53,760 nucleotides of DNA from Sporomusaceae bacterium (GTDB taxonomy: Bacteria > Bacillota > Negativicutes > UBA1444), in assembly GCA_018434355.1 (NCBI GenBank), contig JAHDPL010000015.1, positions 1-53,760 of the forward strand. Direction: 5' to 3'. Position numbers and translations under genes: made by a program. Shown in pieces: positions 23,631 through 30,873 of the stretch (position 1 is its first letter; each line of letters opens with the position of its first letter). The notes under the pieces are model-generated. The model was given only the letters and a program-made list of their open reading frames with translations, was not told the origin of the DNA and made no database searches.

Positions 23631-25519
23631 AGCATTTGATTGTAGGAACAGCAGGACACGTAGACCACGGAAAGACCGCGTTGATCAGAGCGTTAACCGG
23701 AACCGATACTGATAGGCTGAGAGAAGAAAAAGTGCGCGGGATTTCGATCGACATTGGTTTTGCTGCGCTACGCTTTTCGGATACTCTGACGCTGGGAATT
23801 GTCGACGTGCCTGGGCATGAGCGCTTTTTAAAAAATATGCTGGCAGGGACTGGTGCAATCGATATGGTTATGCTTGTCGTTGCAGCAGACGAAGGAATCA
23901 TGCCTCAAACGAGGGAACATTTTGAAATGCTGCGCTGCTTGGGAATCAAGGCGGGCTTGGTTGTTATCAGCAAAATTGATAAAGTTGAGCCGGAGTGGTT
24001 AGCTTTGGTGGAAGACGAAATCAGGAGCTATCTGGACCAATCCTTCTTGTCGCAAGCGCCAATTTGCCATGTATCAGCAGTTTCAGGCGAAGGGGTAGAT
24101 CATCTAAAGCAAACATTGCTCCAAGTCGCACTTGCGGTTTCTCCCCGGAATCGGGCGGCTCCGTTTCGGTTGTGGATCGATCGGGCGTTTAATTTGAAGG
24201 GGCAAGGACTAATCGTAACTGGCTCGGTAATGAACGGGTCTGTATCTACCGGTGCAAGCTTGACAGTATATCCTGACAATATTCCGGTAAAGGTCAGAGA
24301 GCTTGAGTCTCATAATCACGAAGTCGATACGGTCGGCGCGGGACAACGAGCGTCATTGAAACTTTCCGGAGCAGTTCTGGCAGATGTGGGACGGGGGATG
24401 TTTCTAAGCGAAGAAGGTTATTGCAATATTAGTGCTGTTTGGGAAGCGGCAATCCAATGGAAAGAAGAGTTTCCTTCTGGAACCCGCATTCGACTCCATC
24501 TGGGGACCGGAGAATTCATCGGGCGACTGTCATTTCGCAAGCCTAGCGAAACAGATCCGGCGCCGAAAGTGGTGAGGCTGCATCTTGAAAAAGAAATCGC
24601 AGCTGCCTTCGGCGACCAAGGGTTGTTGCGCAGGTTTTCCCCGCAAGACTTGATCGGCGGCGTCACCTTGTTGGTGCCTGCAGACATAGGAAGTCGACGA
24701 CAAGAGCTCTTGCTGCAACTGGAGCAAGCACATCGAAATCAAGATGTTGAAAGTATAATGCTTGTGTTGCTGCGCTTGTTCAAAAAACCACCCAATTTGA
24801 AAGAATGGCAGCAGGCGGCGGGCTATATCGAGACGGATGTTGTGCAAAAAGCAATCAAAAGATTACTTGAACAGGGAAAAGTAAAACTGGCTGGCAATTA
24901 TTACGTTTCTGATGAATTGTTGACGATGTTGAAACTTGAGGTAAAGAAAATCTTAGCAGACTACCATCAGCTCAAACCGGAAGAACCAGGAATATCAAAG
25001 GAAACCCTGAGGCAAAAAGTTAAGTTAGCGACCAATATTGCCGATTGGTTTCTGAGCGCCTGTATTGAACAAGGGCTGTGCGTAGTTCAGGGAGAGTATG
25101 TAGCAAATTCTATTCATGCCCAAAAGCATGGCGGTAATATCGAAGAATTGATAAAGATATTGGATTCGGTTGTGCCGGAAAAAGAATTGATTGATTTGAC
25201 GCCGCAATGGTTGATAGAAAAAATGAATCGACCACAGGAGCAAATTAAGCCGTTTTTTGACCGTATGGTACGCGAAAAAGTGATTATAAGGCTGTCGGGA
25301 GTACACGTATACAGAAAAACAATGCAATACATTAGGGCAATCATTCAGCGCCATTTTTATGAGAAAGAAACGCTGAGTGTTGGCGAAATACGTGATTTGT
25401 TGAACACATCGCGCCGGATGGCCATACCGCTAATGGAATATCTTGACGCGAATAATTATACTGTGCGCAACGGCGATAGCCGCCGCGCCGGCCCGGCCTT
25501 AAAGAACTTGTCAGAATAA
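23627..25519 (+). CDS. selB: Selenocysteine-specific elongation factor SelB
   Basis: A 630-residue GTPase that delivers Sec-tRNA(Sec) to in-frame UGA codons marked by a SECIS hairpin. The G domain shows GHVDHGKTALIRAL (G1), DVPGHERF (G3) and SKID (G4). Two beta-barrel domains follow, and the C-terminal half consists of four winged-helix repeats that bind the SECIS RNA. Length is typical. A suitable hairpin is present in selD of this window. Confidence 0.97.
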   Translation: MKHLIVGTAGHVDHGKTALIRALTGTDTDRLREEKVRGISIDIGFAALRFSDTLTLGIVDVPGHERFLKNMLAGTGAIDMVMLVVAADEGIMPQTREHFEMLRCLGIKAGLVVISKIDKVEPEWLALVEDEIRSYLDQSFLSQAPICHVSAVSGEGVDHLKQTLLQVALAVSPRNRAAPFRLWIDRAFNLKGQGLIVTGSVMNGSVSTGASLTVYPDNIPVKVRELESHNHEVDTVGAGQRASLKLSGAVLADVGRGMFLSEEGYCNISAVWEAAIQWKEEFPSGTRIRLHLGTGEFIGRLSFRKPSETDPAPKVVRLHLEKEIAAAFGDQGLLRRFSPQDLIGGVTLLVPADIGSRRQELLLQLEQAHRNQDVESIMLVLLRLFKKPPNLKEWQQAAGYIETDVVQKAIKRLLEQGKVKLAGNYYVSDELLTMLKLEVKKILADYHQLKPEEPGISKETLRQKVKLATNIADWFLSACIEQGLCVVQGEYVANSIHAQKHGGNIEELIKILDSVVPEKELIDLTPQWLIEKMNRPQEQIKPFFDRMVREKVIIRLSGVHVYRKTMQYIRAIIQRHFYEKETLSVGEIRDLLNTSRRMAIPLMEYLDANNYTVRNGDSRRAGPALKNLSE

Positions 25520-25539
25520 ACTGCATTTAAATATACATG

Positions 25540-25568
25540 TTGACAGTATAAGAAACCGTACCTATAAT
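25540..25568 (+). promoter_or_regulatory. Promoter of the glutamate synthase operon
   Basis: TTGACA at 25540-25545, a 17-base spacer and TATAAT at 25563-25568: an exact consensus. Transcription should start near 25575, just before the riboswitch leader. Confidence 0.88.
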
Positions 25569-25572
25569 TTAG

Positions 25573-25745
25573 CTTGACATGATTCGTGTTTCCTAAAAAC
25601 ACAAACGTGTCAAGGGAGTGTGCCTAGGGTTCCGCGCATCGTGGCGGTCAGGACCGAGCGGCACAGCGCGTAAGCGTACACCGTGAGTATAAAAGACTCT
25701 GCGGAAGGTCCCGGCAAAGGGGCTTCTTGCAGAGTCTTTTGATTT
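25573..25745 (+). promoter_or_regulatory. ykkC-family riboswitch (probably the ppGpp subtype) with terminator
   Basis: The leader contains ykkC-family hallmarks in order: CCTAGGGTTCCGCG (25623-25636), GGACCGAGCGGCACA (25651-25665) and ACACCGTGAGTATAAAAG (25678-25695). The pairings TGTGCC with GGCACA and CCGC with GGCGG form the expected junction. A local hairpin CTTGACA/TGTCAAG precedes it. The terminator at 25691-25740 uses bases of the conserved 3' helix, so ligand binding should prevent termination (an ON switch). ykkC subtypes sense guanidine, ppGpp, PRPP or others. The glutamate synthase context fits the ppGpp subtype (2a), known to control amino acid genes. Family assignment is firm; the ligand is inferred. 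Confidence 0.85.
25691..25740 (+). terminator. Riboswitch expression-platform terminator
   Basis: AAAAGACTCTGC (25691-25702) pairs perfectly with GCAGAGTCTTTT (25729-25740), with inner GAAG/CTTC pairing. Its 5' arm overlaps the conserved GAGTATAAAAGACTC helix of the riboswitch (25685-25699), so the two structures are mutually exclusive. The T-run forms the end of the stem. Confidence 0.85.
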
Positions 25746-25810
25746 TGCAAGAGAGAATGGTACGGTGGTTCTCATTGATAAGCAAGAAAAAAGGAAAGGT
25801 GTGATTTTGG

Positions 25811-26917
25811 ATGTGCAGAATCGGTGCAATCAAGAGTGCTGACCCCGTTCATGCTTCCAAAGCGTTGTCTTTGATGTTACCGCAGCAGGAGGGGCATGAT
25901 AATTCCGGATTCGCCATGGTGATGCAGGACCTGGAAGGCGAATTCAGCTCTTATAAAGAAAAGCCTCTGATGTCGCTGGCTTGTACTCAGAAAGGCGCCA
26001 AAATCGTTCAAGATTACATGGATAAAAGCGGCTTTCGCGCTCTTCACGAGTGGATTCCCAAAGTCAATAACCGACCGGGCCTCGATATCAAGGCCATGCC
26101 ATATTATATTTTTACTGCTTATGACTATCCGGACTATCTGAATAACTCTAGTCAGGACCAAAAAGAAGACCTGCTATTGAACACCAGGTTGGCTTTGCGC
26201 ACGATGCTAGAAAAAGAAGATCATGGCTATATTTTTTCGTTTTGGCCGGATGTGCTCACACTTAAAGAAATCGGCGATCCGCGGGATATTGCGACATATT
26301 TCGGATTATGGGAAGACAGGGGCGACTTGATGGCTCGTAACGTGGTCGTGCAGTGCCGTCAGAACACAAATTACGAAATTGTCCGCTATGCGGCGCATCC
26401 TTTCTTTTTGCAAGGCTACACGCTGTGCGCCAATGGAGAAAACACCTTTTACACAAAAAATAAGGAATATCAAAAATCGTTGCATCGCGGCTATATCGGT
26501 TTTGAATCTGATTCGCAAAACTTCCTATATACGCTGCATTATGTATTGCATGAATTAAAATGGCCGCTGAAGTATTACAAGCACGTAATTACTCCGCTTT
26601 CATTCGAAGAAATGGAAAAACGGCCGGACAAACGAGAGTTGACAGCGATCCGTCAAACACTTGGACACCTTGAAATCAACGGACCTAATACTGTTATCGC
26701 GATGTTGCCTGATGGAAGCATCATGACCTGCTGTGACTCAAAAAAACTAAGGCCGGTAGTTGTTGGAGGCACAAAAGATCTGATGGCGATTTCCTCGGAA
26801 GTTTGCGGACTGAATGTGATCTTGCCTGACAGAGACCAAAGCAAGGATATTTATCCGAATGAACGTGAAATCGTAATGATTACGCCAGGAATGGAGGTGC
26901 AACGATGGAAACAGTAA
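25811..26917 (+). CDS. Glutamate synthase, glutamine amidotransferase subunit
   Basis: A 368-residue class II (Ntn-type) glutamine amidotransferase resembling the stand-alone GltB1 domain of archaeal-type glutamate synthases. Cys2, directly after the initiator methionine (MCRIGAI), is the expected nucleophile, and GHDNSGFAMV follows. It would release ammonia from glutamine for the synthase subunit encoded next. It overlaps that gene by 13 bases. The operon is preceded by the ykkC-type riboswitch. Confidence 0.88.
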   Translation: MCRIGAIKSADPVHASKALSLMLPQQEGHDNSGFAMVMQDLEGEFSSYKEKPLMSLACTQKGAKIVQDYMDKSGFRALHEWIPKVNNRPGLDIKAMPYYIFTAYDYPDYLNNSSQDQKEDLLLNTRLALRTMLEKEDHGYIFSFWPDVLTLKEIGDPRDIATYFGLWEDRGDLMARNVVVQCRQNTNYEIVRYAAHPFFLQGYTLCANGENTFYTKNKEYQKSLHRGYIGFESDSQNFLYTLHYVLHELKWPLKYYKHVITPLSFEEMEKRPDKRELTAIRQTLGHLEINGPNTVIAMLPDGSIMTCCDSKKLRPVVVGGTKDLMAISSEVCGLNVILPDRDQSKDIYPNEREIVMITPGMEVQRWKQ

Positions 26918-28539
26918 AAACGCAAGATGTCACGTTTAATGATCTGGCTTGGAAGATCAAGTATACGCCGGACCGCTGTACGATGTGCGGCAGTTGCGTT
27001 GCAGCCTGTACTTTCAATGCCATTGAAGCACGAATTGAGCGGCGTTCGATCACTGTCTCGACCGGACACCAACCGGAACCAAATCAACGTCATATCGCAG
27101 TTCCGGTAATTAGGCAAAAGAACTCTGTGGCCAATGCCTGCGTTGGTTGCGGGATGTGCGAAAAAGTTTGTCCCAATAACGCGATTCAACCGATTCGCAA
27201 TGAGGACTCACGCCTGAATGTGGTTGGCCGCGCCGGCGGAAATCCGCTCAAACGCGGCGGGCGTACCAATCTCAATGCAGAACGTGTTCTTGACAAAATC
27301 ATTGTTGGCCGAATATCACAAATGACCGACCCTTCGCTGGACTCGGAGCGACATACATTTGACGTATTGGCGCCGTTTGGCCGGGTGTTGTTGCCGCAAG
27401 AACTTCCCTTCTCCGTGGAAAATGGCGAGATCAAGATGCAGGGGTGGGTTCCGCCGGTTCATTGGATATACCCGCTAATTTTTAGCGACATGTCGATTGG
27501 TGCATTATCAACCCGCGCCTGGGAAGCGTTATCGCTGGCCACCGCGTATTTGAACGAAAAACATAAGATGCCTGTCCGGATGTGTTCCGGTGAGGGCGGC
27601 ATGCCTGTTAAGCTAATGGAGTCAGAGTATCTGAAGTACAGCATTATTCAGATCGCCTCCGGTCATTTTGGCTGGAACCGAATTGTTCGGGCGCTACCCA
27701 AAATGAAAGTTGATCCTGCGGGTATACTGATCAAGATCGGCCAAGGAGCAAAGCCCGGCGATGGAGGTCTATTGCCAGCAGCAAAAGTTGCTGAGCATAT
27801 CCAGGCTATCCGTGGCGTTCCGAAGGCGGACTTGTTATCGCCGCCCAATCATCAAGGGCTCTACTCGATTGAGGAATCCGTGCAAAAAATGTTCATGTCG
27901 ATGAATGCGGCCTTCAAATTCAGAGTGCCTGTCGCAATCAAATGTGCCGCCTCGGCGACATCGGTTTCCGTATATAACAACCTCTTGCGCGACCCCTATA
28001 AAATTTGCGGCGGATTTTTTATCGATGGAATTCAGGGCGGAACAGGGGCGGCGAACGAGGTTTCGCTCGACCACACCGGCCATCCTGTAGTATCGAAATT
28101 ACGCGACTGTTATCAATCTGCAGTGAAGCAGGGGAGCCCCGGACGCATCCCGCTTTGGGCCGGCAGTGGAGTCGGTATGACAGGCAACGCTGCAGCGGAT
28201 GCTTTTAAGATGATCTGCCTTGGCGCAAATGGCGTATTTATGGGGAAACTGCTGATCCAACTGATGGGATGCGTCGGTAATGAAAAAGGCCGCTGCAATG
28301 CTTGCAACACCGGGTTTTGTCCGACCGGAATCTGCACACAGGACCCGCGGCTCGTCAAGCGCCTTGATATTGACCGGGCAGCGCAAAACATCGTTGAATA
28401 TATGCTCGCCTTTGATGCCGAGTTCAAGAAATTGATGGCGCCTGTCGGCAACAGCTCGCTACCGGTAGGACGTTCGGATGCATTGGTAACAAACGACCGT
28501 GCGGTGGCTGACAAATTGTCAATCACCTACGCGTGCTAG
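26905..28539 (+). CDS. Glutamate synthase, FMN/Fe-S catalytic subunit
   Basis: A 544-residue protein with two N-terminal [4Fe-4S] ferredoxin motifs (CTMCGSCVAAC and CVGCGMCEKVC) followed by the glutamate synthase alpha/beta barrel. FMN-domain signatures include GEGGMPVK, GQGAKPGDGG and GSGVGMTGNAAADA. The cysteine cluster CNACNTGFCPTGIC binds the [3Fe-4S] centre. It converts 2-oxoglutarate and ammonia to glutamate. The ferredoxin fusion is characteristic of the archaeal-type, multi-gene form; electrons may come from ferredoxin or from the next subunit. Confidence 0.92.
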   Translation: METVKTQDVTFNDLAWKIKYTPDRCTMCGSCVAACTFNAIEARIERRSITVSTGHQPEPNQRHIAVPVIRQKNSVANACVGCGMCEKVCPNNAIQPIRNEDSRLNVVGRAGGNPLKRGGRTNLNAERVLDKIIVGRISQMTDPSLDSERHTFDVLAPFGRVLLPQELPFSVENGEIKMQGWVPPVHWIYPLIFSDMSIGALSTRAWEALSLATAYLNEKHKMPVRMCSGEGGMPVKLMESEYLKYSIIQIASGHFGWNRIVRALPKMKVDPAGILIKIGQGAKPGDGGLLPAAKVAEHIQAIRGVPKADLLSPPNHQGLYSIEESVQKMFMSMNAAFKFRVPVAIKCAASATSVSVYNNLLRDPYKICGGFFIDGIQGGTGAANEVSLDHTGHPVVSKLRDCYQSAVKQGSPGRIPLWAGSGVGMTGNAAADAFKMICLGANGVFMGKLLIQLMGCVGNEKGRCNACNTGFCPTGICTQDPRLVKRLDIDRAAQNIVEYMLAFDAEFKKLMAPVGNSSLPVGRSDALVTNDRAVADKLSITYAC

Positions 28540-28551
28540 GAGGCGGCTGGT

Positions 28552-30873
28552 ATGTATAGAATCAATACATTGCAAAATAACGAACGGATGTCGACCCAGG
28601 ATTTGTTGCAAGCAATCAATGCGGCGATCGAAGCCGGTGAGTCCGATTTTTCCATAGAGGCGTCCGGTCAGCACGATATTGGTGGACCGCTATGGCATCC
28701 GGAAGGAAAAAAACTCCGGTTTACCGTGACGAATCCGGGACAACGCGTTGGCTGCATGTGCCTGGAAAACACAGAGATTATTGTTGAAGGGCCTGCTTCG
28801 GCGGATGTCGGCTGGCTGAATGCCGGCGGCAAGATCGTAGTGAAAGGCGATGGAGGCGATACTTCAGCGCATTGCGCCGCATCTGGCAAGATTTATATTG
28901 GCGGACGTGTGGGAACCCGTTCCGGATCCCTGATGAAATATGACCCGTTGTATTCAGCACCTGAGTTTTGGGTGCTAAAGAATTGCGGCAGTTTTTCTTT
29001 TGAGTTCATGTCCGGCGGGACAGCAGTAATCTGCGGTTATGACAGTAAAGAATTTGCGTCGGTGGTTGGCGACCGGTCCTGTGTCGGAATGGTTGGCGGA
29101 AAACTATACTTCCGTGGCGACGGTCATGGATTGTCAACCAAAGATGTCAAAGTAAGCGCACTAGGACAGGACGATATCGAATACCTATCGAATGGCATGA
29201 CCGAGTTTTTGGCTGATATCGGCAGACCGGAGTTGATGGCTGAGCTGACCTGCTGGGATGAATGGCGCAAGGTGGTGCCATGGACCTATGAGGAACGACC
29301 GAAAAAAGCATCAGCAGACATTCTGAGCTACAGAAAAACTGAATGGGTTCCGGGGGGAATCTTTGGCGACGTTTGCGACGATGACTGGCAAGTGATGGGA
29401 CTTGTGGCTACAGGCAAATATCGACAACGGGTACCGTTCTGGGAAAACATGAAATATATGGCTCCGTGCGAGTTCAACTGTACGGCGTCCATTCCGTCCC
29501 AACAACGGTTCAATTTATTGCGCGAAGGGAAAGTTGACGAAGCCTATCGCCTGGTGCTGGAGTATACACCGTTTCCTGGTTCCGTATGCGGAGCGGTCTG
29601 CATGAATTTGTGCATGGATGAGTGTACTCGTAGCCAAGTCGATATTTCCGCCCAAATCGGTCGACTGGGGACGTATTCGGCTGATGTCCAAATCCCAACT
29701 GTGGCCGAGAAAACCGGCAAAAAGGTAGCGGTGATCGGCGGAGGACCGGCCGGTCTGTCAGCAGCGTGGCAAATGGCCCGTGACGGACATGAAGTAACAG
29801 TGTATGAAGCGCATGAAGCGATGGGCGGAAAAATGGAACAAGTAATTCCGCGCTCGCGGTTACCCCATGAGACGCTTGAGATGGAACTGGCGCGGATTGA
29901 AAAGATGGGCGTCCGTTTCATCACAAACTATCCGGTCGATAAAGCAAAATTCGCGGCAATTCGCCATGAAAACGATGCAGTTGTTGTTGCCAGCGGCGGC
30001 CATGTAACCAAAATTATCCCCTGGCCAGGTCATGAACGGATTGTAAAAGGGCTGGATTTTCTCAAAGCCGTTAACCGTGGTGAAACAGTGAAAGTCGGTA
30101 AAAGGGTCATTGTCATTGGCTGCGGAAATTCCGGGATGGATGCCGCGGTTGGAGCATATCAGATGGGAGCGGAGCAGGTTGTATGTATTGACGTTCAACG
30201 CCCTGCTGCATTCCAAAAGGAAATTGACCACGTGCAGGAACTTGGTGGCGAACTAATTTGGCCAGTGTTTACAAAAGAAATAACCGAAGCGGGCATTATT
30301 ACTCAGACCGGTGAACTGATAAAGGGAGATATGGTAATTATCACGATAGGTGAAAGTCCGGACCTGAGCTTTCTGCCAGCGGGAATCGAACTAGACCGCG
30401 GCTGTCTGAAGCCGGCGGCAGACTGGAGTGTTGCCGAAGGGATCTTTACAGCAGGCGATACGACAAAACCAGGGCGCTTGGTCGATGCAATCGGCATGGG
30501 TCGACAAGCGGCATTAGCAGTGAGTGCATACCTAACAGGAACTCAATATATTGGGGAACAAAAAAACAAGATTCCTGCGACCAGACTCAAGACCGCCTAT
30601 TTCAAGAAATGTCACAGCTGTGATTTGCCTAGCGCAAAAGAGGAGTATAATCGATGCATCAGTTGCGGGACTTGCCGTGATTGTCATATGTGCATGAAAT
30701 CGTGCCCGGAAAATGCAATTTCTCGTATCGCAAGCAAGGAAGCAGGCGGTTTCGAGTATGTCGTTGACGCCGGAAAATGCATAGGTTGCGGCATCTGCGC
30801 AGGAATCTGTCCTTCTGGAATTTGGGCAATGTACAATAATGCGGAAGCGATTAATATGTATAAAATCGTGTGA
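28552..30873 (+). CDS. Fused GXGXG / NAD(P)H oxidoreductase / ferredoxin subunit of glutamate synthase
   Basis: A 773-residue three-part fusion. Residues 1-245 are the GXGXG beta-helix domain (GltB3-like: VGWLNAGGKIVVKGDGGD, GRVGTRSG). The middle is a GltD-like flavoprotein with an Fe-S lead-in, an FAD fold VIGGGPAGLSAAW near 394-406, and an NAD(P)H fold VIVIGCGNSGMDAA near 520. The C-terminal part (about 680-773) has cysteine clusters CISCGTCRDCHMCMKSC and CIGCGICAGIC for two [4Fe-4S] centres. It would complete the synthase and feed electrons to the FMN subunit. Subunit roles are by analogy. Confidence 0.88.
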   Translation: MYRINTLQNNERMSTQDLLQAINAAIEAGESDFSIEASGQHDIGGPLWHPEGKKLRFTVTNPGQRVGCMCLENTEIIVEGPASADVGWLNAGGKIVVKGDGGDTSAHCAASGKIYIGGRVGTRSGSLMKYDPLYSAPEFWVLKNCGSFSFEFMSGGTAVICGYDSKEFASVVGDRSCVGMVGGKLYFRGDGHGLSTKDVKVSALGQDDIEYLSNGMTEFLADIGRPELMAELTCWDEWRKVVPWTYEERPKKASADILSYRKTEWVPGGIFGDVCDDDWQVMGLVATGKYRQRVPFWENMKYMAPCEFNCTASIPSQQRFNLLREGKVDEAYRLVLEYTPFPGSVCGAVCMNLCMDECTRSQVDISAQIGRLGTYSADVQIPTVAEKTGKKVAVIGGGPAGLSAAWQMARDGHEVTVYEAHEAMGGKMEQVIPRSRLPHETLEMELARIEKMGVRFITNYPVDKAKFAAIRHENDAVVVASGGHVTKIIPWPGHERIVKGLDFLKAVNRGETVKVGKRVIVIGCGNSGMDAAVGAYQMGAEQVVCIDVQRPAAFQKEIDHVQELGGELIWPVFTKEITEAGIITQTGELIKGDMVIITIGESPDLSFLPAGIELDRGCLKPAADWSVAEGIFTAGDTTKPGRLVDAIGMGRQAALAVSAYLTGTQYIGEQKNKIPATRLKTAYFKKCHSCDLPSAKEEYNRCISCGTCRDCHMCMKSCPENAISRIASKEAGGFEYVVDAGKCIGCGICAGICPSGIWAMYNNAEAINMYKIV

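Follow-up and report, generated by a model that had tools for sequence, protein, structure and literature searches.

A probable ppGpp-type ykkC riboswitch in front of a glutamate synthase operon of the Negativicutes

The operon, its promoter and its leader

The window, i.e. the whole analysed stretch of 53,760 nucleotides, comes from a Sporomusaceae bacterium whose nearest named relatives are Negativicutes (UBA1444, 88% protein identity). It contains a three-gene glutamate synthase operon, which is preceded by a promoter and a structured leader with the following features:

25511..25516, + strand: TCAGAA within the conserved TCAGAATAAACT motif, 29 nt upstream of the -35 box
25540..25568, + strand: sigma-70 promoter, TTGACA-17-TATAAT, whose boxes recur in almost every related glt locus
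25573..25614, + strand: 5' hairpin CUUGACA...UGUCAAG, part of the minimum-energy fold and kept in a genome of the same genus
25614..25712, + strand: ykkC aptamer, very probably of subtype 2a (ppGpp-type)
25614..25617, + strand: 5' strand of helix P0, GGGA, pairing with UCCC at 25709-25712
25619..25665, + strand: P1 domain with outer stem (25619-25624/25660-25665), core CUAGGGUUCCG and inner stem, as seen in alignments A1, A2 and A3
25666..25677, + strand: P2 hairpin GCGC-GUAA-GCGU, from the fold and from covariation in relatives
25679, + strand: C25679, predicted partner of the guanine base of ppGpp
25681..25704, + strand: P3 hairpin from the fold (25681-25688/25696-25704)
25691..25746, + strand: intrinsic terminator, stem 25691-25702/25729-25740 and U-rich tail
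25811..26917, + strand: divergent class-II glutamine amidotransferase-like glutamate synthase subunit (MCRIGAIKS...GHDNSG), the first gene under the proposed control
26905..28539, + strand: glutamate synthase FMN domain with 4Fe-4S clusters (PF01645, E=7e-62)
28552..30873, + strand: GXGXG domain and GltD-like NAD(P)-binding subunit (PF01493, PF07992, PF14691)

The PF01645-type FMN domain is the single strong match of its kind in the genome. The product of the first gene is highly conserved (71-88% identity); it gave no Pfam match and no convincing PDB chain, and its similarity to amidotransferases is faint, with weak PurF-type matches in 21/24 family members. An AlphaFold model of this subunit was discarded (mean pLDDT 48).

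The promoter boxes (TTGACA at 25540-25545, TATAAT at 25563-25568, spacer of 17 nt) agree with the consensus at 12/12 positions, and the first-pass annotation was thus right in placing the ykkC element directly behind a consensus promoter. Further upstream, a TCAGAAtaaACT motif (25511-25522 in the window) stands at the near-constant distance of 26-29 nt from the -35 box of glutamate synthase promoters (L119-L124, L126-L136, L140, L147, L155-L181). Its TCAGAA hexamer, which recurs at this distance in many glt loci both with and without a riboswitch, overlaps the selB stop codon in the window. An explanation of the motif as the selB stop region was rejected: it persists at several loci where no ORF ends nearby, so that coding does not explain it. 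Judged by sequence and position, it looks like a candidate regulator site at about -64, possibly an activator site separate from the riboswitch.

Structure and class of the aptamer

The first-pass annotation had assigned the interval 25573-25745 to a ykkC-family riboswitch. The features it described lie where it had put them; the first part of the interval (about 25573-25613) is a separate hairpin, located at the predicted transcript start and outside the aptamer, and the complete ykkC-type aptamer proper occupies 25614-25712. This aptamer is single, without a tandem T-box, and is preceded by the extra 5' hairpin. The conserved segments claimed for it were recovered as CUAGGGUUCCG (25624-25634), GGACCGAGCG (25651-25660) and UACACCG (25677-25683), and the element has the P1-P2-P3 scaffold with the core CUAGGGUUCCG and CCGAG. 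The claimed junction pairings were recovered as well, since the minimum-energy fold of a transcript ending at 25714 is the expected four-way junction, including the extra P0 helix of just 4 bp that joins both ends of the aptamer.

A search of the window with Rfam 15 gave a match to Guanidine-I (RF00442) at 25613-25706, which with 43.9 bits (E=1e-6) does not reach the gathering score of 63. Neither a ppGpp nor a PRPP family was returned; therefore, purpose-built class models were needed. Matches to microRNA, symR and ncr1015 families are chance hits to the 5' hairpin and the terminator. To collect elements, 60 Negativicutes genomes were scanned with RF00442, and 115 elements were sorted by published markers (PMC6031431, PMC5912903, PMC10687018), namely an A or a pyrimidine at position 46/49 and a PRPP-type 3' segment with G96. 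This gave 64 elements of subtype 2a, 30 of subtype 2b, 16 of guanidine-I, and 5 others. After inspection, two of the 30 subtype 2b elements were moved to 2a, one 2a element (L086) was moved to 2b, and the guanidine-like L118 was set aside before alignment. Gene context, which was not used in sorting, splits 2a and 2b in the same way. The 2a elements precede genes for the first subunit of glutamate synthase (26), the small subunit of acetolactate synthase (ilvN), 2-isopropylmalate synthase (leuA), ketol-acid reductoisomerase (ilvC), a branched-chain amino-acid binding protein (livJ-like), and phenylacetate-CoA ligase; the 2b elements precede purE, xanthine phosphoribosyltransferase (xpt), and a permease.

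Three covariance models (2a, 2b, guanidine-I) were built without the genus of the window. With the 2a model (R1), which is home-made and rests partly on marker residues from papers, the window element scored 97.2 bits (E=1.2e-25, 25612-25715), compared to 55.3 bits with the 2b model (R2) and 43.1 bits with the guanidine-I model (R3). The best hit to a ppGpp model, proposed by the first-pass annotation as a check of its call, was thus obtained with a lead of 42 bits over PRPP and of 54 bits over guanidine-I; the opposite outcome, a higher score for one of these two, did not occur. For the purE element of the same genome (G000:C51:138303-138450, L003), which is of the PRPP type, the values were 61.6 (2a), 110.1 (2b) and 36.2 (guanidine-I). 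This reversal of the order indicates that the models discriminate in both directions. In order to reduce circularity, sequence profiles were additionally grouped by gene context (branched-chain genes, purine genes, guanidine-I). The window element scored 68.9 with the branched-chain profile, 24.5 with the purine profile and 12.2 with the guanidine-I profile, and the branched-chain profile was preferred by 26/26 glt-linked elements.

The marker residues point in the same direction. C25659 is a pyrimidine at the 'Y49' position, which is A46 in guanidine-I; the choice between pyrimidine and A at position 46/49 separates subtype 2 from guanidine-I (PMC6031431). C25679 corresponds to C75 of T. mathranii and C69 of Cba and is invariant in 48/48 2a relatives; according to the two papers that list the residues discriminating subtype 2a (PMC6031431, PMC10687018), this conserved C pairs with the guanine of the ligand. 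Position 96 (C75+21) is U25700, which forms a one-nucleotide bulge in P3, just as PMC6031431 describes for the ppGpp-binding G96A structure. If the element is aligned strictly to the Guanidine-I model, a G falls one position after U25700, and an invariant U is found opposite this G in 48/48 2a relatives. The arrangement fits a U-G pair and not the flipped G of PRPP switches, as far as sequence can tell and with invariance alone being no proof. The purE switch of the same genome has the opposite marker pattern.

The structure is also maintained by compensatory changes. In 48 relatives, 92.2% of cells were paired and both sides had changed in 24/35 pairs. The covariation score was 0.426; shuffles gave 0.180, and sliding the structure by one to three columns gave no more than 0.109. 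The P0 helix, which is unique to subtype 2, covaries in 5/6 pairs, and RNAalifold, unprompted, returned nearly the same structure.

Could the element belong to one of the two sister classes? A PRPP riboswitch (subtype 2b) would share the scaffold, P0 and the pyrimidine at position 49. However, the invariant G96, which is G in 25/25 PRPP-type relatives (column 138 of A2), and the bulged-G turn are missing, no purine gene follows, and the genome has its genuine PRPP-type element elsewhere, in front of purE; together with the difference in model scores, this makes such an assignment highly improbable. Guanidine-I, the only riboswitch family matched in Rfam, has the P1-P2-P3 scaffold and the core in common with the window element. 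Its chance of being the correct class is nevertheless negligible, as the match stays under the gathering score, the pocket carries C in place of the key A, P0 is present, the class model falls far behind that of 2a, and the neighbouring genes do not include a guanidine gene. Known ppGpp riboswitches of subtype 2a (PMC5912903, PMC6031431, PMC10687018), in contrast, combine the four-way junction including P0, the pyrimidine at position 49, the guanine-pairing C and the lack of G96 with an anti-terminating ON switch and with amino-acid genes, and the window element has no feature outside this known range. Glutamate synthases are among the 2a contexts listed in PMC5912903. The element is thus very probably a ppGpp-type riboswitch that controls the glutamate synthase operon by attenuation. 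The claim of ppGpp sensing made in the first-pass annotation is supported by model, marker residues and gene context, from which we infer that the ligand binds.

Terminator overlap and proposed switching

The terminator consists of 12 uninterrupted Watson-Crick pairs followed by UUUUGAUUUU and has a folding energy of -33 kcal/mol when considered alone. As had been noted from the sequence, it competes with the 3' conserved helix: its 5' arm (25691-25702) comprises the P3 loop, the 3' strand of P3 (25696-25699) and the bulge, and the 3' strand of P0 is located in the upper stem of the terminator. A gap-free pairing of this kind with the P3 strand was reached in 0/100 shuffles. Among glt-linked elements, the strict gap-free overlap was significant in 13/27 cases; about half of them do not pass it, owing to bulges or to a different layout.

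The predicted fold of the full leader contains the terminator (-78.2 kcal/mol, z=-5.5). In simulated folding of the growing transcript, P3 was formed from 25700 to 25730, and the terminator took over at 25735. Since in the computed fold of the complete leader the terminator is ahead by about 13 kcal/mol, switching must be kinetic, which is in line with the cotranscriptional picture drawn for another ppGpp riboswitch (PMC10687018). Aptamer and terminator are mutually exclusive; therefore, a ligand stabilizing P0 and P3 must favour readthrough, and the ON-switch logic of the first-pass annotation follows from the overlap of both helices with the terminator. Transcription would start near 25571-25576. 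With ppGpp being scarce, the nascent leader would refold into the 12-bp terminator and transcription would end near 25746. Upon amino-acid starvation, the rising ppGpp would pair with C25679 and stabilize P0 and P3; these would hold the strand required by the terminator, and the polymerase would continue into the glutamate synthase genes. The genome contains one RelA/SpoT gene to make the ligand. We infer the direction and extent of regulation in vivo, and a starvation effect on glutamate.

The strong energetic preference for the terminator would also suit an aptamer relic, i.e. a plain promoter followed by a constitutive attenuator without ligand response. Against this stand the invariance of the pocket residues and the compensatory changes, both seen across families, and the same-genus genome, in which the pocket and the helices are unchanged despite drift of the neighbouring sequence; such a relic is extremely unlikely. 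A subtype 2 aptamer specialized on glutamate synthase and binding another ligand, for example another guanine nucleotide, deserves somewhat more attention, as few mutations suffice to change the ligand of ykkC RNAs (PMC6031431) and a G occupies the P3 bulge in part of the glt-linked elements. The window, however, has U in this bulge and keeps the tested ppGpp contact residues, and every glt-linked element scored as branched-chain type; we regard this alternative as very unlikely too.

Distribution and related elements

A strong 2a element was found at 20/80 homologous glutamate synthase loci, and two more loci have weak, divergent matches. The carriers are Sporomusa, Pelosinus, Propionispora, Anaerospora, Lucifera, and related genomes. 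No 2a element was detected at the Selenomonadaceae loci among these 80; the glt leaders of Selenomonas are mostly too short for one. The 2a model matches 59 of 300 genomes of the class at E<=1e-6, a cut-off that PRPP-type elements also pass. The riboswitch of the window is a clear new example in an already published gene setting and not a new type of device. In one branch of the Negativicutes, nitrogen assimilation is most likely under direct RNA control by the alarmone ppGpp, and the pair within one genome, a ppGpp-type element before glt and a PRPP-type element before purE, shows one scaffold tuned to two ligands. As no Rfam 15 family lies above threshold for either element of this pair, such RNAs go unannotated or surface as weak guanidine matches.

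The gltD motif (PMC8632094), an orphan riboswitch candidate of Selenomonadales/Veillonellales, likewise precedes glutamate synthase genes of this class as a leader RNA. As described in that paper, it differs from the window element in having a hairpin behind it that covers the ribosome-binding site. In the related glt loci scanned with Rfam, no family matched.

Several neighbouring observations concern divergent leaders. In the glt leaders of L128 (1700-1990) and G019 (L238), which are 78% identical across two genera, a terminator and 3' elements resembling P0 and P3 are present, but neither the typical P1 core nor the AAAA loop of P3 has been retained. They are possibly remodelled or decaying ppGpp switches. 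A broader reading, by which glt control in Negativicutes has two layers (activator site plus ppGpp anti-termination switch) and these two families use a remodelled switch with the ligand-side P0/P3 still in place and the typical P1 core and P3 loop lost, is rather unlikely. At L125 (1528-1641), the glutamate synthase gene has a long leader of about 500 nt, in which the 2a model finds a weak match (24.9 bits) whose junction is altered.

The genome of the window contains a further ppGpp-type element (G000:C48:52892-53004, L001) before a dctP TRAP-transporter gene, behind which lies the gene for a LarAH10-type 2-hydroxyacid racemase. Genome G053 has a 2a element (L044) directly before a LarAH10 racemase. 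At the purE element, Rfam detected no tandem guanine aptamer; the upstream sequence of many of its relatives resembles one. Finally, five ykkC variants (L108, L110, L113, L114, L115), in which CACCUAUUGGCAC replaces the usual entry into P3, are by sequence neither 2a nor 2b nor guanidine-I, and all five precede a HAD-IIA phosphatase gene.
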